The translations under genes were made by a program, and so were the position numbers. 21,178 nt of DNA from the IMG/VR virus record IMGVR_UViG_3300032322_000172, positions 1 to 21,178 of that record; one strand, written 5' to 3'. The notes beneath the pieces are model-generated. The model was not told the DNA's origin, searched no databases, and saw only the letters and a program-made list of their open reading frames with translations. Source of the stretch: a virus. Below, piece after piece: positions 6,668-19,931 of the stretch (the first letter of the stretch is position 1; each line of letters starts with the position of its first letter).

Positions 6668-7003
6668 ATGCCAAGATTCCTCGACACGCTAGGCTATTCA
6701 GACATAGCCATTGCGGTCTGTGATCGATGCAAGATGAAGCGCCCGCACGCGGTTATGAGGAGCGATCCGAACTTCCCAGGTTTGCAGGTATGCAATGAAG
6801 GCTGCGCGGACGAATTTGATCCGTACAGATTGGCTGCAAGAAAGACAGAGCGGATTACAATCAGGTTTCCGCGACCTGATTTGTCTGTTGCGGTGGACCC
6901 GAACAACCTGACCACAGGTGGCGACGGCAATTACGTTGTGTCTCCGGAGCAGAACACGCAGACCCCAGAGAACAACGGCAACTTGGACAGCATCGAGGTG
7001 TAG
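6668..7003 (+). CDS. Small zinc-ribbon protein of the tail/head region
   Basis: A 111-residue protein two bases after the adaptor stop, with GAGG before its ATG. It has four cysteines in CX2C-X20-CX3C order (C18, C21, C42, C46: CDRCKMKRPH and VCNEGC), consistent with one structural zinc site. The segment ADEFDPYRLAARKTE and a PRPDLSV motif follow, then a polar tail from about residue 75. The opening MPRFLDTLGYSDIAI and the Cys-DPYR arrangement recur in phage proteins next to adaptor or neck genes. The function is unknown: a head-tail completion or minor virion protein seems more likely than a regulator, because it lies inside the structural operon. Confidence 0.6.
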   Translation: MPRFLDTLGYSDIAIAVCDRCKMKRPHAVMRSDPNFPGLQVCNEGCADEFDPYRLAARKTERITIRFPRPDLSVAVDPNNLTTGGDGNYVVSPEQNTQTPENNGNLDSIEV

Positions 7004-7004
7004 T

Positions 7005-9638
7005 GTGGCGAATGTAACGATTACCCAATTACCGGCAGCGGGGCCAATTACCGGAACGGAGTTGGTGCCAGTCGTTCAGGGTGGTCAGACTGTTCGCACT
7101 ACCGCAGCCGCTCTGGCCGGATCTCCCGTACAGACTCAGACGTTCCTGACGCTCAATCAAGAGCCGACGCTGATTAACAGCCGTTACTTGCAGGGCGGAA
7201 CCGGTATTGGGCTGCTAGACAACGGGGCGTTGTCGTACCTTCAGGTGGTCCTAAACGGAGCCTCTGGGAGCCTGGAATCGGCTGCAAACGGCATTATTGT
7301 TAAGACAGGCGGAACGACGGTCACCAACCGATCTATTGTTGTGACCGGAAACGGCTTGGCCATTACAAACGGCAACGGTATTGCTGGCAACCCGACAATT
7401 GGATTGACTGGTCTGGCGTTGGCCATTGCTCAGGTATCCGGCACTGGGATGTTGGCGGTTGTGGGTGGATCTACGATTGCTGGCCGACAGTTGCTTGGTA
7501 CGGCCAATCAGATTGATGTTGCGTTCGGTGACGGATCGAATAGTCCAGTGTTTTCGCTGGCTACGAACCCGATTCTTCCGGGAACGGGGGCGGTAACGGT
7601 TCCAAAGGGTACGAGTGCTCAAAGACCGGTTGGTCAAGACGGGATGATTCGGTACAACACCGATACAAGCTCGCTGGAGGTGTATGACTCGGGTTCTTGG
7701 TCGAACTTGCCCACTGGCGCGGTTACGCTCATCAATACTGGAACGGGGCTGACGGGCGGTCCTATAACGTCTTCTGGGACGATTTCGATTGCTCCGACGG
7801 GGATTGCTGCTTCGACCTACGGATCTGCGGCAATTGTCCCGGTTTTGACGGTCAATGCTCAGGGACAGATTACTGGTGCGATTGATACGCCGATCTCTAT
7901 TGGTACCACTCAAATAACGTCTGGGGTACTGGATGTTAATCGAGGGGGCACCGGTATTGGAGGCTATGCGAATGGCGATTTGATCTACGCTTCTGGATCA
8001 ACAACGTTGTCATCTTTGACCATCGGAACGATTGGTCAGGTGTTGGTAGCAACAGGATCTGCCCCGCAGTGGTCAGATGTATCTACCGTTGCTGTAACCA
8101 CATTTGATGGCGGCACTACGGGATTGACCCCGTCTACGCCAACTGCTGGCGCGGTGTCTCTTGGCGGGGTTCTTGTTGGAGAAAACGGCGGTACGGGTGT
8201 CAATAACTCTGGCAAGACGATTACGCTCGGTGGGAACCTAACGACCTCTGGCGCATTTGCTCTGACGCTAACTCAGACCAATACGACGAACGTCACGCTG
8301 CCAACGACGGGCACATTGGCAACGTTGGCCGGGTCTGAAATTCTGACCAACAAAACAATATCTGGTGCGCTAAACACGTTAACGAACATTCCTAATGCTG
8401 CGCTTGATAACTCAAGCGTCACTATTGGGTCCACGTCAGTGTCATTAGGTGCGTCAACGCTAACGCTGGATGGATTGACTTCGGTAGCGGTAACTCAAGG
8501 TCCGTTGACTGCTTTACAGTTAGCCACTAAACAGTATGTTGATGATGCGGTGTCGTCGGGCATTAATATTCATCCGCCAGTAAGGGTAGAGACGCCCGCG
8601 GCGTTAAACGCCACCTACACTCCTGGCGGAACAGCAGTCACAGTAACGGACATTTCCGGCAATAAAACATTTACGTTTTCTACGTCACCGAGCTTGTCAA
8701 TCAACGATCAGATTGTTTTTTCTTCGACCTCTAACGGCATTGTTTCAGGAACTGCGTACTATGTTTTCTCAGTGCCTGCCGCAAATCAGATCACTCTTTC
8801 GTTGAGTTACAACGGCCCTGAATTAACAACGTTCATTAATGGCTCTGGGTTGACAATTGCTGGCCTAGTCAATGCAGGCGTCGGTGCAACTCTAACCAAC
8901 GCCGGAACAAAAGCTGCGTTACAGATCGATGGAGTAAACCTTTCAGTTACAAATCGCGTTTTGGTTTTGAACCAAGTCAATGCGTATGAGAACGGGGTCT
9001 ATACGGTTACAACCGTTGGAACGCCTGACCCCGGTGGTACTAACTGGGTTTTGACTCGAGCGTTAACAGAAGACAAGTACAAGCCAGATAGTACGACCGG
9101 CATGGGTCAAGGCGACTACTACTTTGTTCAAGAGGGTAATACAGGAGCGGGTCAGTCGTATGTGTTGACGACACCTAACCCGATCATTATTGGTACTACA
9201 AATCTAACGTTCACTCAGTTTTCTTCGTCGCAGGTGTATTCAGCGGGAACGGGTTTGACTCTTTCTGGCACGCAATTCAGTCTTACCGCTCCGGTGACTG
9301 CTGCGTTGGGAGGTACGGGACAAACGTCCTACACGGCAGGCGATCTAATCTACGCCACGGCCTCTACAACGCTTGCAAAGCTAGCCCTTGGGGCATCGAC
9401 TTATCTGTTGACTTCAAGTGGTACTGCCCCGCAGTACACTGATCCTGCTTCTGTATCGGTGGGATCGGCCACAAACGCAACGAACACAGGCATCACTGCA
9501 AGCAGTGTAAATGCTGATTACTATTTGACGGTAGTCAGTGCAACTACTGGCAATCTGCCGCAGTTGGTAGCGACGGGATTGACCGCAAACCCATCCACCG
9601 GGAAAATCACTGGTGGCATCGCTGGAGGTACCTTCTAA
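7005..9638 (+). CDS. Tail fibre protein, Gly/Thr-rich
   Basis: I place the start at the GTG at 7005, which has GAGGTG at 6995-7000 and immediately follows the previous stop. An in-frame ATG at 6918 would overlap the zinc-ribbon gene by 86 bases and gives an Arg/Thr-rich N-terminus unlike the family. The 877-residue product opens MANVTITQLPAAGPITGTEL, a conserved virion-attachment start of phage fibres. It continues as beta-rich Gly/Thr/Asn repeats, including two 49-residue copies beginning GGTG. A fibre domain then starts at LATKQYVDDAVSSGINIH and continues through RVLVLNQVNAYENGVYTV. It ends in GGTF. It probably forms a trimeric receptor-binding or fibre-shaft protein. Confidence 0.75.
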   Translation: MANVTITQLPAAGPITGTELVPVVQGGQTVRTTAAALAGSPVQTQTFLTLNQEPTLINSRYLQGGTGIGLLDNGALSYLQVVLNGASGSLESAANGIIVKTGGTTVTNRSIVVTGNGLAITNGNGIAGNPTIGLTGLALAIAQVSGTGMLAVVGGSTIAGRQLLGTANQIDVAFGDGSNSPVFSLATNPILPGTGAVTVPKGTSAQRPVGQDGMIRYNTDTSSLEVYDSGSWSNLPTGAVTLINTGTGLTGGPITSSGTISIAPTGIAASTYGSAAIVPVLTVNAQGQITGAIDTPISIGTTQITSGVLDVNRGGTGIGGYANGDLIYASGSTTLSSLTIGTIGQVLVATGSAPQWSDVSTVAVTTFDGGTTGLTPSTPTAGAVSLGGVLVGENGGTGVNNSGKTITLGGNLTTSGAFALTLTQTNTTNVTLPTTGTLATLAGSEILTNKTISGALNTLTNIPNAALDNSSVTIGSTSVSLGASTLTLDGLTSVAVTQGPLTALQLATKQYVDDAVSSGINIHPPVRVETPAALNATYTPGGTAVTVTDISGNKTFTFSTSPSLSINDQIVFSSTSNGIVSGTAYYVFSVPAANQITLSLSYNGPELTTFINGSGLTIAGLVNAGVGATLTNAGTKAALQIDGVNLSVTNRVLVLNQVNAYENGVYTVTTVGTPDPGGTNWVLTRALTEDKYKPDSTTGMGQGDYYFVQEGNTGAGQSYVLTTPNPIIIGTTNLTFTQFSSSQVYSAGTGLTLSGTQFSLTAPVTAALGGTGQTSYTAGDLIYATASTTLAKLALGASTYLLTSSGTAPQYTDPASVSVGSATNATNTGITASSVNADYYLTVVSATTGNLPQLVATGLTANPSTGKITGGIAGGTF
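7944..8090 (+). repeat. Fibre repeat copy 1 (GGTGxxxYxxGDLIYA unit)
   Basis: A 49-residue in-frame unit GGTGIGGYANGDLIYASGST that ends near PQWSDVSTV. It matches the copy at 9309-9455 in length and pattern: GGTG, GDLIYA, STTL, then a GSAPQW/GTAPQY turn. Identity is clearer in protein than DNA, so the duplication is old or conserved as a shaft unit common to many fibres. Confidence 0.65.
8631..8873 (+). other. Ig-like module inserted within the fibre domain
   Basis: About 81 residues (543-623) with strand-like text TVTDISGNKTFTFST, SINDQIVFSSTSNGIVSG and TAYYVFSVPAANQITLS. In the usual form of this domain a NATY start runs almost directly into GVGATLTNAG. Here the module sits between them, suggesting a nested insertion. 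Confidence 0.45.
9309..9455 (+). repeat. Fibre repeat copy 2 (GGTGxxxYxxGDLIYA unit)
   Basis: The second 49-residue copy, GGTGQTSYTAGDLIYATAST, ending near PQYTDPASV. It is separated by about 1.2 kb from copy 1 at 7944-8090, with the unrelated fibre domain between them. Confidence 0.65.
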
Positions 9639-10855: not shown

Positions 10856-11068
10856 ATGATTAAGATTGACTTCTCATTTGAAACCCCTTACGGCAAGTTT
10901 GCTGACGCTCTGCATCTTCCGGACGATCATGCGTTTACGGAAGCAGAGATCCAAGCCATGAAGGAACAGCGCCGGGACAACTGGATTGCTGTGGTGACCG
11001 CGCCTCCGGTTGAGGAGGTGCAACCCGAGTACATCGAGATCGATGGCGTCAAATATGTGAAGGCGTAG
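10856..11068 (+). CDS. Conserved small phage protein, unknown function
   Basis: A 70-residue acidic protein starting three bases after the fibre stop, with no clear Shine-Dalgarno, so translation may be coupled to the upstream gene. The sequence IDFSFETPYGKFADALHLPD, then FTEAEIQAMKEQRRDNWIAV is a short beta-hairpin plus helix. A Pro/Glu-rich linker (APPVEEVQPE) and a final strand IDGVKYVKA follow. It resembles small proteins found next to fibre genes in related phages, perhaps fibre chaperones or linkers, but this is inference. No membrane segment or signal peptide is seen. Confidence 0.5.
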   Translation: MIKIDFSFETPYGKFADALHLPDDHAFTEAEIQAMKEQRRDNWIAVVTAPPVEEVQPEYIEIDGVKYVKA

Positions 11069-11070
11069 TC

Positions 11071-14000
11071 ATGGCCGACAGATATTGGGTTGGCGGGACT
11101 GCCAACTGGGATGGTACTGCCGGTACCAAATGGGCTACTACGTCTGGTGGTGCTGGCGGCGCTTCTGTTCCTACCAGCGCGGATGATGTGTTTTTTGACG
11201 CTGCGTCGGGTGTTTCAACGGTTACTTTAGTAAGCGTAGCGACTTGTAGAAGTCTTAATTGCACTGGATTTACTGGAACTCTTACTGGCAGTGCAACTTT
11301 ACAAGTCTTTGGAGATTTTATTCTTGATGCTGGTATGACATATGGATCTTCTATAGACAATCAACTGAGAGCTTCTACTGGGTCTTGGATAATTAATACA
11401 AATGGAAAAACGTTAAACAGTTTATCAGTAGGTGTAGTAGTAAGCACAGCTACATGGTCGCTTGATGGTGCATTAACATTGTCAAATACTTTAACTGTGA
11501 CTTATGGCACATTCAATTCAAGCAATTACAATATAACTGCGGCGTCGATTAATTCTAATAATTCTAATGTTAGAAGTATTAATCTTGGATCAAGCAGCAT
11601 TACACTCAGTTTTAGTTTTCAAGCCACAACAACTACAAATCTTACACTCAATGCTGGTACATCCACGATTAACTTTACGCCCCAAAATGCAAATTTATTT
11701 TTTGGCACTAGTGGATCTCCCGGAACAGCAACTCTGTATAACATATCTTTTAGCTCAACGACTGCCGGCACTCACAATTTACGAGGATTGTTGACATTAA
11801 ATAATCTATCAGTAGCTGCGCCGTCCACCGCTGGAGTGACAATACTTCAAATTGAAGGTCGTCAAACCATCAACGGCACCCTCTCGACTACAGGCACAGC
11901 AGGAAACCGCCGCGTTTGGTTTCGCAGTCAAACCTACGGCCTAGCCCAAACCCTGACCGTCAACGCCACGCCCAGCCTGACCGACGCTGACTTCCGAGAC
12001 ATCTACGTCATCGGCACTGCTGCACCGATCTCTGGTACTAGGGTTGGTGATTTGAGAGGCATTAGAGGGATTACAAGGTCTACACCCAAATCTGTTTATT
12101 GGGTCACTGCTGCGGGTGGCAACTGGTCTGCTAACAACTGGGCAGCATCGTCTGGCGGCGCAGCATCAACTGACAACTTCCCGCTGGCTCAGGATACGGC
12201 TGTTATCGAGAACACCGGGCTGAATACGTCGGCTACGGTAACGCTGGACAATACTATTACTTACTTTGGCACTATCGATATGTCCACGCGGACGAACGCG
12301 ATGACGCTGGCGGGATCAACGGCATATACGGTTTACGGGGATTGGAAGTTTGGAAGCGGAGTAACAAGAAGCTACACCGGAGGCTTGACGTTTTCTGGTC
12401 GCAACACTCAGACAATTACGAGCGCCGGTAAAGCATTCGCTCAGGCTTTTACAATTGATACCTACGGCGGCACAGTTGAGCTTGCCGACGCTCTAAATAT
12501 TGGTTCCAACGCACTCACCGTCACCAACGGCACGTTCGATACTAAGAATTACAATGTTACTTCAGATTCCATATCCTCTAGCAACAGCAATATTAGGACA
12601 ATAACGTTAGGCTCAAGCACTGTTACCTTGGGAGGAAGTCCCGCAGTAAGCGCGTCAACAACAATAAATTTAACTTTTAACGCCGGGACGTCCCAAATAA
12701 ATATCACACGGCTTAGTGCGCAATTAACAGCTAGTAATCTTACATTTTATAATGTTTCATTCACGACTACGAGTGCATCAACGCACACTTTGCGCGGCGT
12801 GATGACGTTTAATTCTTTGTCTATAACTGCTCCATCGTCTGCAGGGCTTACCCAACTTTCTGTTGAAAACAACCAAACTATTACCGGCACTCTCACCGTC
12901 GCCGGAGCGACCCCTATCCGTCGCATCTTCATCCGTTCCGACACCATCAACACCACTCGCACCCTGACCGTTGGCACCCTATCCGCTACGGACTGCGACT
13001 TCAGGGACATCACGATAGCCGGTACTGCTGCGGGGTCATCTCCGACTCGCGCTGGTGACTGCGGTGGAAACTCTGGGATCACGTTCTCTGCTCCGAAGAC
13101 TGTGTACTGGAACCTCGCTGGGACGCAGAACTGGAGTGCTACGGCATGGGCACCGGGGTCCGGTGGGGTGCCTGACATCAACAACTTTCCATTGGCTCAA
13201 GATACTGCTGTATTTGATAATACAGGAGCAGTTGGAACAGTTACAATTAATGCTGTATGGAATACTGGTACGTTTGACGCGTCGGCGCGAACAAGCGCGA
13301 TGACATTAGATACTAATACCAACGTAGTTGGATTAATTGTATACGGAAGTTGGAAGTCTGGGACAGGCTTGTCAATAGTGTCATCAAGTGCAACAACAAA
13401 TTTTTTTACAATTGGTTCGCAAACACTAACAAGCAACGGAGTGCAATTTACTTTCAACTTAGGCTTTAATGGAAGAGCGACTGGCATTATGGAACTGTCG
13501 GACGCTTTGAGTTTAAGCTCTGACAAAACTATAAGTCTAAGTGGTGGTACGTTTGATGCAAAAACGTATAATGTTACATCTGGTGTAATTCAGTCAGGTG
13601 GGTCAAGCCCTAGAACAATAAAAATGGGCACAGGAACTTGGACTTGCTCCGGTGTAGGTTCCGTATGGAGTATTACCGACTTAACAAATGCCTCGTGGTA
13701 TAAACAGACAGCAAATATTGTCCTGTCCGACACAAGCGCCACTGCTAGAACATTTACAGGTGCTGGTCTTTCATACAACAAACTTACCATCGGCGGCGCG
13801 ACAGGCATATCGACCACAACTATCACCGGCGACAACCAATTCACCGAGCTTGCCAGCACAAAGACCGTTGCCCACACCATTGCGCTTGGCTCAACTACCC
13901 AAACCTTCGGCGCGTGGACCGTCACTGGCACCTCTGGCAACGTCGTCACCCTGACCGGCACGGGAACCTCTCATATTCTTGCCGGAGCCTGCACCTCGGG

Positions 14001-16266
14001 CATCGACTACCTTGCAATGGGCAGCATTGGCTTTTCAGCCTCCTCCCCCGCTGAGTTCTATGCTGGAGCCAACAGTACTGGAACCGCAGCCGCTCCGGTC
14101 TATCGCACAGCCAAGCCCGCTGACTCTACGCGCTATTGGGTTGGTGGTACGGGCAACTGGTCTTCGACAACCAAGTGGTCTACGTCGTCTGGTGGTGCCT
14201 CTGGTGCATCTGTCCCGCGAAGCCATGATGATGTTGTGTTCAACTCGGCGTCCAACGCAACGGCTTACACGGCTACGGTGGATGCAGTCACTGGCGGCAT
14301 CAGGGTGAAGGCTCTGACCATTGCTGGCCCAGCATCAGGAAACGTGACGCTTGCAGGATCAACTGCAATCGTGGGTATTCACGGCAACGTAACGCTACCA
14401 GCTACGGGGCTGACGAGGACTTATACGGGTGCGATCACTCTGACAGGATCAACGTCAGGCAAGACGCTGACGACGAATGGAGTAGCCCTGTCCTCTATAC
14501 TTACGGTGGACGGAATTGGGTGCGAGTGGACTTTAGGCAGCGCCTTAAATATCGGGACAAGTAATGATTTTAATATATATAACGGAAGTTTTATTACTGG
14601 AAATTACGCATTAACAGCAAACTTAATCAATGCAATAAAGGCAAACGGATGGACTACAGATAGAAGTATAAATTTAGGTAGCTCTACAATAACCACCGGG
14701 TCCGCACCTACATTTCCAATAATGTTTGGTACTACTACGGTAGAAGCAGATACATTAACATTCAATTGCGGCACATCAACAATATTAATTCCTGCTTTTA
14801 ATGGTACGTTTAATGGAAATGGTAAAACGTTTTATAACGTGTCACTTAATTATAACGGCAACGCCAGTTTAACAATTTCTGGTGCAAATACCTTTAATGA
14901 CCTATCCATAACCGGTATAACTGGTACTGGAATTAAAACAACTTCTTTTGCAAACAATCAAATCATCAATGGCACTCTGACTATCTCTGCTGGAACCGAC
15001 GCCACGATGCGGAACTTTGTCCGTTCCGACACTTTTGGAACGACCCGCACCCTGACCTGCGCCGCCGTCAGCATGACCGACGTAGACTTTCGGGACATCA
15101 CTATCGCTGGTGTTGCCGCACCTGCTACGGGTACGCGGATCGGGGACTGCAAAGGCAACAGCGGGATTACGTTTACAGCAGCAGCAAACAAATACTGGAA
15201 CCTCGCCGGAAACAACAACTGGACTGCGACGGCTTGGGCCACATCGAGCGGAGGTTCTCCGTCTATCAACAACTTCCCTCTGGCCCAAGACACCTGCATC
15301 TTTCAATCTACCAGCCCCGGTACAGGCGCTACAACGACAATCAGTATCGCCTACAACATTGGCACGATTGATATGTCGGCGCGTACAACTAACACGATGA
15401 CGCTGGCAACGGGATCAAGCTCTCCTTTTATTTACGGCAACTGGATCAACGGCACCGGCACTACGTTGACTGGTACTGGAACGCTGACGTTTGCTGGCCG
15501 TGGAAGCCAGACGGTTACTAGTGCAGGCAAGACGTTTACGCAGAATTTAACCATTGACACCCCAACTGGAACTGTAACTTTGCAAGATGCGTTAATTTGC
15601 AATCAACAAATGACGGTCACAAGGGGTGGTATTGACGGAAATAACTACAACGTAACTTTTACGGGAACAGGATCGTCTACCGGAGTTTTGTCATCAAATA
15701 CAAACACAAGAACCATTTCTATCGGGTCAGGGACTTGGACTATTGCCAGTACTAGTGGATGGAGCGTCTCAATAGCCACCAATTTCACCGTCACAGGCAC
15801 AGGCACAATTAGCCTGACTTCAACATCTTCTAATACCTTCACGGGCGGTAGCGTTGCTTACACCAATATCACCCTTAACCAAGGCGGTGCTGGCACTCTG
15901 ACGATCTCCGGCAACAACACCTTTAAGGACATCACGAACACCTACAAGGCTACGGGTGCTACAGCTATTTCCCTAGGCACGACCACCCAGCGCGTCTCTC
16001 AGTGGACAGCGGCAGGCGAGGCAGGGCGGGTTCTGACGGTTCAGGGGACTTCAGCCAGTTCTCCGGGGACGTTGATACTGACAGGTGCTACGAAGCCGAA
16101 TGTAGACTATCTAACAGTCACAGGGGTTCGTGCTTACGACCTTACGGATACTTGGTACGCTGGAACAAATTCAATCAACAATGGTTCTTTAGGATGGAAT
16201 TTTAATGTTGAGCCTGCGCCAAGCGGTTCAACAAGTGGATTCTTTTTGATGTTTATGCCTATGTAA
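11071..16266 (+). CDS. Giant modular adhesin / tail fibre (1731 aa, five modules)
   Basis: The largest gene in the window, two bases after the 70-aa gene. It has five modules of about 340-355 residues, each beginning YW(V/N) at residues 5, 343, 679, 1022 and 1375. Within each module a strand block contains a G(T/S/G)(F/I)xxxNYx(V/I/L)T motif, usually followed by R(T/S)I and a Gly-Ser turn. Most modules then have a block with FxxRSxT and (D/V)FRDI before the next module (FRDI at three sites). Modules 3 and 5 end in DYLxxx...YAG. The tail ends WNFNVEPAPSG then FFLMFMPM, a hydrophobic C-terminus. It is beta-rich with no enzyme motif, matching repetitive adhesins. No signal peptide is present, as expected for a virion fibre. 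Base composition alternates along the gene. Confidence 0.7.
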   Translation: MADRYWVGGTANWDGTAGTKWATTSGGAGGASVPTSADDVFFDAASGVSTVTLVSVATCRSLNCTGFTGTLTGSATLQVFGDFILDAGMTYGSSIDNQLRASTGSWIINTNGKTLNSLSVGVVVSTATWSLDGALTLSNTLTVTYGTFNSSNYNITAASINSNNSNVRSINLGSSSITLSFSFQATTTTNLTLNAGTSTINFTPQNANLFFGTSGSPGTATLYNISFSSTTAGTHNLRGLLTLNNLSVAAPSTAGVTILQIEGRQTINGTLSTTGTAGNRRVWFRSQTYGLAQTLTVNATPSLTDADFRDIYVIGTAAPISGTRVGDLRGIRGITRSTPKSVYWVTAAGGNWSANNWAASSGGAASTDNFPLAQDTAVIENTGLNTSATVTLDNTITYFGTIDMSTRTNAMTLAGSTAYTVYGDWKFGSGVTRSYTGGLTFSGRNTQTITSAGKAFAQAFTIDTYGGTVELADALNIGSNALTVTNGTFDTKNYNVTSDSISSSNSNIRTITLGSSTVTLGGSPAVSASTTINLTFNAGTSQINITRLSAQLTASNLTFYNVSFTTTSASTHTLRGVMTFNSLSITAPSSAGLTQLSVENNQTITGTLTVAGATPIRRIFIRSDTINTTRTLTVGTLSATDCDFRDITIAGTAAGSSPTRAGDCGGNSGITFSAPKTVYWNLAGTQNWSATAWAPGSGGVPDINNFPLAQDTAVFDNTGAVGTVTINAVWNTGTFDASARTSAMTLDTNTNVVGLIVYGSWKSGTGLSIVSSSATTNFFTIGSQTLTSNGVQFTFNLGFNGRATGIMELSDALSLSSDKTISLSGGTFDAKTYNVTSGVIQSGGSSPRTIKMGTGTWTCSGVGSVWSITDLTNASWYKQTANIVLSDTSATARTFTGAGLSYNKLTIGGATGISTTTITGDNQFTELASTKTVAHTIALGSTTQTFGAWTVTGTSGNVVTLTGTGTSHILAGACTSGIDYLAMGSIGFSASSPAEFYAGANSTGTAAAPVYRTAKPADSTRYWVGGTGNWSSTTKWSTSSGGASGASVPRSHDDVVFNSASNATAYTATVDAVTGGIRVKALTIAGPASGNVTLAGSTAIVGIHGNVTLPATGLTRTYTGAITLTGSTSGKTLTTNGVALSSILTVDGIGCEWTLGSALNIGTSNDFNIYNGSFITGNYALTANLINAIKANGWTTDRSINLGSSTITTGSAPTFPIMFGTTTVEADTLTFNCGTSTILIPAFNGTFNGNGKTFYNVSLNYNGNASLTISGANTFNDLSITGITGTGIKTTSFANNQIINGTLTISAGTDATMRNFVRSDTFGTTRTLTCAAVSMTDVDFRDITIAGVAAPATGTRIGDCKGNSGITFTAAANKYWNLAGNNNWTATAWATSSGGSPSINNFPLAQDTCIFQSTSPGTGATTTISIAYNIGTIDMSARTTNTMTLATGSSSPFIYGNWINGTGTTLTGTGTLTFAGRGSQTVTSAGKTFTQNLTIDTPTGTVTLQDALICNQQMTVTRGGIDGNNYNVTFTGTGSSTGVLSSNTNTRTISIGSGTWTIASTSGWSVSIATNFTVTGTGTISLTSTSSNTFTGGSVAYTNITLNQGGAGTLTISGNNTFKDITNTYKATGATAISLGTTTQRVSQWTAAGEAGRVLTVQGTSASSPGTLILTGATKPNVDYLTVTGVRAYDLTDTWYAGTNSINNGSLGWNFNVEPAPSGSTSGFFLMFMPM
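11083..16194 (+). repeat. Five-module internal repeat of the giant adhesin
   Basis: Module starts (TAT/TAC TGG) are at 11083, 12097, 13105, 14134 and 15193, all in one frame, spaced 1008 to about 1060 bases apart. Two module types can be seen from their openings. Type A (modules 1 and 4) begins RYWVGGT with VPxSxDDV. Type B (modules 2, 3 and 5) begins YW(N/V) and contains NNFPLAQDT or DNFPLAQDT. The order is A-B-B and A-B, each run ending in a DYL...YAG element, which suggests a higher-order duplication of an A-B unit. Confidence 0.7.
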
Positions 16267-18061: not shown

Positions 18062-18696
18062 TGACTGTTGCAGCGGTAATGACGTATGACTCGCTAGTCA
18101 ACGACATCGAGACGTACCTCGAGCGTACAGATACGGCGACTCTTCAGAAGATCCCGCAGTTCATCATGCTCGCAGAGCAGGTGATTGCTTCGGAGCTAAA
18201 GTTCCTTGGTAACCTGACGGTTGCTCAGAGCACCATGATTGCCGGGGAACCTGTCATCGACAAGCCCGCTCGATGGCGCAAAACCGTGTCTATGAACGTA
18301 ACGGTTGGTGGCAAGAAGAATCCAATTTTGCTGCGCAAGTACGAATATCTTCGGGAATATTGGCCAGACGCTGTTGATGTGGATGTGCCAAAGTTCTATT
18401 GCGACTATGACTATACGCATTGGCTGGTGGCCCCGACCCCGGCGCAGGCGTACAGTTACGAGGTCTTGTATTACGAGCGTATTCAACCGCTGGACTCAAC
18501 CAACCAGTCCAACTGGTTTACTCAATACGCGCCTCAAGCGTTGCTATATGGATCTCTTCTGCAGGCTATGCCGTTTCTGAAGAACGATGAGCGAATGGCG
18601 ATGTGGCAGACACAATACTCGCAAATCATCCAAGTCTTGAAGACTGAGGACATTGCTCGAGTAGGCGACAGACAAACCGTTGTGAGGGATTCATGA
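18061..18696 (+). CDS. Second P22 gp4/SU10-like tail adaptor (no insertion)
   Basis: I chose the ATG at 18061, with AGG at 18051-18053 seven bases upstream. GTG codons at 18055 and 18058 sit too close to that site. It overlaps the preceding stop by one base. The 211-residue product follows the adaptor layout: an N-terminal helix with SLVNDIETYLERTDTAT, then IPQFIMLAEQVIASELKFLG, a beta region RWRKTVSMNV, and WLVAPTPAQAYSYEVLYYER. The C-terminal helices start TQYAPQALLYGSLLQAM. It resembles the portal-proximal adaptor of short-tailed phages. A second adaptor-like gene sits at 5604, carrying a discoidin insertion, so the two may form different rings or stages. Confidence in the fold is high, the exact ring uncertain. 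Confidence 0.72.
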   Translation: MTVAAVMTYDSLVNDIETYLERTDTATLQKIPQFIMLAEQVIASELKFLGNLTVAQSTMIAGEPVIDKPARWRKTVSMNVTVGGKKNPILLRKYEYLREYWPDAVDVDVPKFYCDYDYTHWLVAPTPAQAYSYEVLYYERIQPLDSTNQSNWFTQYAPQALLYGSLLQAMPFLKNDERMAMWQTQYSQIIQVLKTEDIARVGDRQTVVRDS

Positions 18697-19931
18697 GCTT
18701 TATTTCGCCCTTTACCGGCAACGTCATCCAGCCGACGGACGTATCGTTCCGCGCTATTACGTTGTCCACAGACGTGCAGTTGGAGTGGCCGATCAACGGC
18801 AGTCCTACGGATCAGCCAACTGCTCGGATCATGAATGTTACGGCTACGACTGGGGGCTTGAAGCTCAAGATGCCACCGGCCAATCAGGCGTCTGTAGGCG
18901 AGGACGCGCTGATTCGCAACGTAGGCGGTACTACGTTTACCGTCACAGACTATGACGGCAACACGATTATCACAATTTTGGCCGGAGAAGCGAAGTACAT
19001 CTATATCACCGCGAACCCGACGACCGCAGGAACCTGGGGCAACATCGCGTTTGGTGTAGGAACCAGTAACGCGGATGCGGCAACACTTGCTGGGTATGGC
19101 CTAAAAGCGATTTCAACGACGCTGAATCAAGCGCATCAAGTAACGGCATTTTCGTCTGACTACACTGCAGTGGCGTCCGATAGAGCTGCTTCGTACTTGT
19201 GGACGGGTGGTGCAGGAACGTTTACTTTAACCGCACCATCAACACTTGGTAATGATTGGTTTTTGATGATTCGTAACGGGGGTTCCGGTACTTTGACCGT
19301 GTCGCCCTCCGCTGGTTTAATAAACGGATCATCCAGTATTGCGATGCAGCCGTCAGATTCCGCAATCGTTATTTGTTCGGGTACTGGATTTTTTACTGTC
19401 GGACTTGGAAAATCAACGCAGTTTAACTTTACGCAATTGACTAAAGCTGTTACGTCTGGAAGCGTGACGTTGACAAGCGCAGAGGCCGCTAACGTTGTCC
19501 AGAAGTACACGGGAACGTTAAGCGGCAACGTGACGATTGTGTTGCCGCCGACCATTCAGGTGTACTACATCACCAATCAGACGGACGGCACTGGGGCAGG
19601 CTACAACATCACATTCACCACCGGCATTCTAGGAGCAGCGGTTGCCGCAATTGGCGCAGGGCAACAGGCAATTTTGATTTGCGATTCCGTAAATATGTTG
19701 AACGCCAACACTACGCTAGCCGGTGGTGGTACGTTTTCGCTGTTAAATGGATCAGCGGCTTCACCATCGTTAAATTTTGCGTCTGAATCAAATACTGGCA
19801 TCTTTCGTCCAGCATCAAATGAATTTGGAATTGCTGTTGCTGGAGTTCAAAAATTTGTTGCAACGTCATCAGGAATTTCAATCACTGGCACCGGTACGTT
19901 TTCGCAAGGCGTTTCAGGCGGTAGCTTCTAA
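18693..19931 (+). CDS. Fibre-like appendage protein
   Basis: A 412-residue protein overlapping the adaptor by four bases (ATGA) with GAGG upstream. It begins MSFISPFTGNVIQPTDVSFR, a conserved opening of a phage virion protein, followed by PARIM-like text NVTATTGGLKLKMPPANQAS. It then becomes Gly/Thr/Ser-rich beta sequence with an internal EAKYIYITANPTTAGTWGNI motif. A C-terminal SESNTGIFRPASNEFGIAV repeat, typical of tail-fibre beta segments, follows. It ends in GGSF, just like the fibre at 7005-9638. No membrane segment. It may bridge the tail tip to fibres or itself be a fibre. Confidence 0.65.
   Translation: MSFISPFTGNVIQPTDVSFRAITLSTDVQLEWPINGSPTDQPTARIMNVTATTGGLKLKMPPANQASVGEDALIRNVGGTTFTVTDYDGNTIITILAGEAKYIYITANPTTAGTWGNIAFGVGTSNADAATLAGYGLKAISTTLNQAHQVTAFSSDYTAVASDRAASYLWTGGAGTFTLTAPSTLGNDWFLMIRNGGSGTLTVSPSAGLINGSSSIAMQPSDSAIVICSGTGFFTVGLGKSTQFNFTQLTKAVTSGSVTLTSAEAANVVQKYTGTLSGNVTIVLPPTIQVYYITNQTDGTGAGYNITFTTGILGAAVAAIGAGQQAILICDSVNMLNANTTLAGGGTFSLLNGSAASPSLNFASESNTGIFRPASNEFGIAVAGVQKFVATSSGISITGTGTFSQGVSGGSF

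Follow-up and report, generated by a model that had tools for sequence, protein, structure and literature searches.

Position-locked GC3 stripes and exchange of module interiors in a giant, predicted beta-helix gene of freshwater phages

The window analysed here, a 21,178-base IMG/VR virus contig, encoded tailed-phage structural genes, an endolysin and tail-fibre-like ORFs. The giant gene (Table 1) was preceded by ORFs whose PHROG matches were to head-decoration or unnamed families, and the endolysin followed downstream. In about 28 other carriers, a member of the same cluster as the 70-aa ORF directly upstream likewise sat immediately 5' of the giant gene, and this small protein is possibly an assembly partner of the giant protein. 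A further ORF (positions 18693-19931) matched a tail fibre family.

Table 1. Positions of the giant gene, its modules, interiors and frameworks, and the adjoining small ORF within the window
Feature	Position	Strand	Evidence
70-aa ORF directly upstream of giant gene	10856..11068	+	Small-protein cluster, 29 loci
Giant gene, predicted five-module beta-helix protein, 1731 aa	11071..16266	+	ORF; five HMM modules; AF2 model of modules 4-5, pLDDT 89
Module 1 (aa 4-340)	11080..12090	+	Module HMM match
AT-rich interior 1	11260..11850	+	GC3 step fit; interior replaced in 7 pairs, borders at codons 90/265 (median)
GC-rich conserved framework, interiors 1-2	11851..12630	+	Conservation and GC3 profile; first DFRDI-type strand, module 2 start
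Module 2 (aa 342-677)	12094..13101	+	Module HMM match
AT-rich interior 2, best-defined putative exchange cassette	12631..12876	+	GC3 fit 521-602; pair borders 518-522, 600-602
GC-rich conserved framework, interiors 2-3	12877..13311	+	Conservation and GC3 profile
Module 3 (aa 678-1012)	13102..14106	+	Module HMM match
AT-rich interior 3	13312..13770	+	GC3 step fit; interior shared despite divergent frameworks, 4 pairs
GC-rich conserved framework, interiors 3-4	13771..14487	+	Conservation and GC3 profile
Module 4 (aa 1021-1372)	14131..15186	+	Module HMM match
AT-rich interior 4	14488..14814	+	GC3 fit codons 1140-1248; median pair borders 1135/1252
GC-rich conserved framework, interiors 4-5	14815..15408	+	Conservation and GC3 profile
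Module 5 (aa 1374-1701)	15190..16173	+	HMM match; superposes on tailspike beta-helix, Z 15.6
AT-rich interior 5	15409..15768	+	GC3 step fit; no replaced pair, one shared-interior pair

A module HMM recognized five copies of about 340 aa in the window protein and 609 copies in 144 proteins, with two to six modules in each protein, a count lowered in some by contig ends. AlphaFold2 returned an all-beta model for modules 4 and 5 (pLDDT 89), predicted as a single chain. In VIA-align, module 5 superposed best on the Det7 tailspike (gp208; Z 15.6, rmsd 3.9 over 287 residues), with the Det7, P22, 9NA and HK620 tailspikes scoring Z 13-15.6 (P22-type about 14) and lyases and adhesins scoring about as high. 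Foldseek searches of the modelled modules against the PDB gave no match at E <= 0.001, and among viral proteins the best matches came from uncultured phages and were either unnamed or called 'parallel beta-helix repeat'. The giant protein had no accepted match in Pfam, PHROGs or NCBIfam. TIGR02601 (autotransporter-associated beta-strand repeat) reached 14.9 bits against a cut-off of 19.85, in module 5 only; a short partial match to DUF881 (PF05949; 20.7 bits, gathering cut-off 25) was judged spurious, and a CopC match was likewise below its cut-off. The five modules are thus predicted to be beta-helices of tailspike type, and the fold, the variability and the gene neighbourhood together suggest that the protein is likely a host-recognition fibre or spike. 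No relative was found in bacterial or archaeal genomes; the family consists of common, unclassified freshwater-phage proteins.

A preliminary description of this DNA had proposed, from GC counts of five 60-base lines, that base composition alternates within the giant gene. All five counts were exact on recalculation (28.3, 30.0, 65.0, 61.7 and 60.0%), and the alternation was confirmed by GC3 in 40-codon windows, which spanned 0.15 to 0.72. It recurred five times, with one AT-rich interior per module, and reached slightly past the range of 11221-15660 first given for it. To correct for amino acid composition, each codon was compared with the gene-wide GC3 of its own amino acid, and synonymous codons were shuffled among identical residues. 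GC3 was not constant after this correction, its range in 60-codon windows being 0.593 compared to 0.336 ± 0.041 in shuffles, none of 2000 of which reached the observed value. Fifteen of the 17 other ORFs in the window fell within or near their shuffle range; the tail-fibre-like ORF also exceeded it (0/2000) and the endolysin ORF was borderline (51/2000). The tail-fibre-like ORF held a second significant swing inside one gene: GC3 lay at about 0.6-0.8 up to codon 120, mostly between 0.3 and 0.5 in mid-gene, and at 0.10 near the end. AT-type codons, of which AGA had been named at the outset, were concentrated in the interiors of the giant gene, where AGA made up 43% of Arg codons (13% in frameworks), ATA 34% of Ile (10%) and TTA 25% of Leu (8%). 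The original description paired AT-rich with variable and GC-rich with conserved parts, and the smoothed GC3 residual, as a mean over relatives, correlated with amino acid conservation (r = 0.70). Interior 1 of the window was unusually AT-rich, with a GC3 of 0.17 (positions 11251-11430) against 0.46 ± 0.14 in relatives.

The comparison was extended to 80 IMG/VR loci, whose relatives aligned at 53-70% identity along most of the protein (L numbers below denote these and other loci). Interior GC3 (0.35) was lower than framework GC3 (0.59) in 66 of 66 non-redundant IMG/VR sequences, window included. Across 345 modules of near relatives, GC3 dipped mid-module at about HMM positions 91-210. A shallower dip lay in the same place in distant relatives (186 modules; profile correlation r = 0.89), and the dip was also locked to module phase in proteins with two to six modules. 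The stripes thus belong to the whole family, at set places in the module, and are not private to the window contig. Since every near relative showed the same pattern, the interiors must have had this property for long, and a single recent import does not account for it. Conservation (beta 0.59) and, beyond it, module phase (beta 0.38 ± 0.07) both predicted GC3. The GC3 effect was regional, with low values at conserved sites in variable neighbourhoods (-0.17) and not at variable sites in conserved ones (+0.02); codon-accuracy selection acting on individual conserved residues was rejected on this ground.

The preliminary description had further suggested that module interiors are exchanged between fixed conserved borders, and this is supported by direct replacement in relatives. 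Interiors with less than 72% nucleotide identity between two frameworks of more than 90% identity occurred in 87 pair/module cases (module 2, n = 56; module 4, n = 30; module 1, n = 1), many of which share contigs so that the counts are not independent. The converse, a shared interior between two different frameworks, was seen in six cases. In a separate segmentation, 71 pairs with frameworks more than 90% identical around the module-2 interior had a block scored as replaced by 45-55%-identical DNA, interior codon alignments being less certain than framework ones. The commonest borders of this block, codons 518-522 and 600-602 (some of the left ones fell on the limit of the range that was scanned), coincided with a two-level GC3 step fit of 521-602 that was made without pair information. 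The pair L012 and L014, for example, were 93-100% identical up to codon 520, 43-70% over codons 521-600 and 83-100% thereafter. Pair borders and GC3 steps agreed within 5 codons in module 4 and more loosely in module 1 (GC3 fit 64-260; 7 pairs). Two pairs in module 3 were segmented outside the interior and were unconvincing, and segmentation of the relatives gave no replaced-interior pair in module 5. We also found 363 tracts of at least 98.5% identity inside otherwise diverged pairs, and of their 78 merged sharp borders 7 fell in the lowest GC3 quartile and 34 in the highest, a distribution matched by no circular shift. On these alignments, cassette exchange between near-identical flanks is well supported in modules 2 and 4 and weakly supported in module 1. 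Replaced blocks of 80-110 codons at 45-55% identity are unlike the adenine substitution of a diversity-generating retroelement. The swaps are seen between relatives and not in the window contig itself, whose main frameworks had 76-89% (about 85%) DNA identity to their nearest relatives and whose interiors had no close relative, with about 50-61% amino acid identity at best.

Segment histories, which had been singled out as a check for separate ancestry, disagreed between interiors and frameworks. Rank correlations of segment distance matrices were 0.40 between frameworks, 0.17 between interiors and 0.20 between interiors and frameworks, compared to 0.27-0.89 for split halves of the same segment, the lowest value being that of the nearly saturated interior 2. 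In L156, L159 and L167, frameworks ranked as distant (0-0.3, except M2), and interiors 2 (0.70-0.80) and 5 (0.43-0.70) ranked middle to top in similarity; these outside lineages share some interiors, and not frameworks, with the window family. Best-matching modules nearly always occupied the same ordinal position in other proteins, indicating that exchange is allelic; shuffling of modules between positions along the chain was rejected. As carriers of the giant gene differed in their neighbouring genes, the whole gene also moves between phages.

We postulate that the giant gene encodes a chain of five tailspike-type beta-helix modules in which each middle would be an exchangeable cassette. During mixed infection, homologous recombination in the flanking GC-rich frameworks, presumably of RecA or annealase type, would replace an interior with the same-position interior of another phage, and the resulting diversity may be selected through host binding. 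Frameworks would stay in a lineage long enough to follow genome composition in part. Interiors would circulate in a pool common to phages of different GC and keep its AT-richness irrespective of the carrier, so that the striped GC3 would be a compositional image of the cassette borders. We give this reading a probability of roughly three in four. Regressed on flanking genes, GC3 had a slope of 0.14 in interiors and 0.33 in frameworks, and interior GC3 stayed at 0.32-0.36 as framework GC3 rose from 0.4 to 0.8, consistent with phages of different GC drawing on a shared pool. A simple mutation-selection model with a constant logit offset between interiors and frameworks was rejected, as the offset grew with framework GC3. 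In more AT-rich distant lineages interior GC3 was lower still (0.15-0.28), and there is thus no single pool value. Foreign AT-rich donors are a candidate source of this composition. Searches with single interiors for outside donors returned no relative of interior 4 and one 32%-identical relative of interior 1, a weak absence since exact short peptide words were needed; a framework stretch of similar length returned 143 relatives. The cultured Limnohabitans phage DC31, with a genome of 37.58% GC (PMC12195039), encodes a homologue of the same family (PQ492658.1, L082; about 55% identity over the aligned stretch) that differs in its flat GC3 of about 0.18, with no dip (0.18 vs 0.18), in an AT-rich genome. 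Its interiors were not clearly nested in the window family, and the missing dip counts against exchange from a common pool. The homologous ORF in DC31, of at least 1374 codons, lies at the record end, where the annotation has nothing but small hypothetical genes in its place, two of which run on the opposite strand.

Alternatively, interior exchange may be real and the AT-richness arise in place, through AT-biased mutation and a GC-favouring force, either codon selection or GC-biased gene conversion, that acts in the conserved, frequently recombining frameworks and is ineffective in interiors with fast turnover, linked selection and little internal recombination. This we consider a serious competitor whose chances fall slightly short of even. 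It accounts for the regional nature of the effect and for the tracking of conservation by GC3, and bacterial genes that recombine tend to be GC-richer (PMC4450053). It also accords with a balanced synonymous flux: the 75 polarised synonymous changes in interiors (40 AT-to-GC, 35 GC-to-AT) gave an equilibrium GC3 of 0.38 (0.27-0.50), near the present value, compared to 0.51 (0.48-0.53) in frameworks, a difference in bias with p = 0.027. Interiors thus look to be near their own equilibrium, unlike AT-rich DNA drifting back up, and this counts against a simple recent import. However, framework GC3 was at genome level (0.59; window flank, 0.58), leaving no GC excess to explain, and module phase predicted GC3 beyond conservation. 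Moreover, g8, g11, lys, g15 and g16 had no clear relation between GC3 and conservation, in small samples with fewer homologues. On balance we lean slightly to a shared pool as the origin of the AT-richness.

Selection of slow codons mid-module, so that each beta-helix folds during translation, would explain why the dip is locked to module phase in proteins with two to six modules, why phase acts independently of conservation and why AGA, ATA and TTA are enriched. We regard it as unlikely, because the effect of conservation was larger than that of phase, the DC31 homologue lacked any codon rhythm, and the coincidence of cassette borders with GC3 steps would be left unexplained. Still less credible is that the mosaics are assembly chimeras joined through conserved frameworks. 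Nearly all relatives are metagenomic contigs, in which some joins could be artefacts and frameworks of 95-100% identity could mislead assemblers, but one mosaic recurred in three assemblies from separate metagenomes (L013, L014 and L060) and another in two (L011 and L072), deep framework/interior discordance between lineages is not producible by joining present-day reads, and position-locked GC3 steps occurred inside every near relative. That the stripes merely mirror which amino acids (Asn, Ile, Thr, Ser) make up the variable strands is refuted, despite a modest excess of A/T at codon positions 1 and 2 in interiors, by the swing of 0.59 that persists after correction and by codon choice for one and the same amino acid differing by region (AAC for 46% of Asn in interiors vs 76% in frameworks).

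Mosaic phage adhesins are already known, and the central helices of tailspikes are receptor-binding, often enzymatic, variable and spread between phages. The model of module 5 superposes on the P22, Det7, 9NA and HK620 tailspikes. In contrast to them, the window family joins two to six helix modules per chain with a variable core in each, and the window protein has no significant sequence or Foldseek match. Bacterial surface antigens such as flagellin have a variable low-GC center and conserved ends used by homologous recombination; the giant gene has five such centers, and in a phage. The tail fibre of Alteromonas schitovirus A5 is reported to be a host-recognition module common to unrelated phages (PMC10579305). 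The likeness lies in one adhesin-type gene occurring across phages with different backbones; the difference is that a whole fibre-chaperone unit reportedly moves there and the window family also swaps interiors below the level of the gene, between fixed borders. Among the papers searched, none described GC stripes within single phage adhesin genes. What looks new here is that every module in a chain of two to six has an exchangeable core of its own, recognizable from base composition. The exchange unit in this freshwater-phage family would then be the module core, not the gene or domain, and base composition alone can reveal exchange borders within one gene, to a few codons in two modules. A bolder proposition, which we advance tentatively and hold to be rather less likely than not, is that the protein is a scaffold of two to six modules holding independently exchangeable binding cores from a common AT-rich pool, providing combinatorial host recognition in one gene. 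If so, unrelated freshwater phages would assemble combinations of cores by recombination in the GC-rich scaffold DNA. The family also offers an orderly system for asking what rate of recombination lets a sequence keep the composition of a pool rather than that of its carrier.

Several relatives departed from the common layout. In L059 (flank GC3 0.21), the frameworks of modules 1-4 were GC-rich and module 5 was wholly AT-rich (positions 6900-8111), making the gene a compositional chimera; a search for relatives of this AT-rich module returned only L059 itself. Framework 3, normally GC-rich, had a GC3 of 0.15-0.21 over about 40-60 codons in L019 and L070, which suggests AT-rich imports into the framework. 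In eight relatives (L051, L056, L057, L058, L066, L070, L073 and L078), about 170 residues of module 1 were missing in the region of interior 1, and alignment to the window protein resumed at residue 242.
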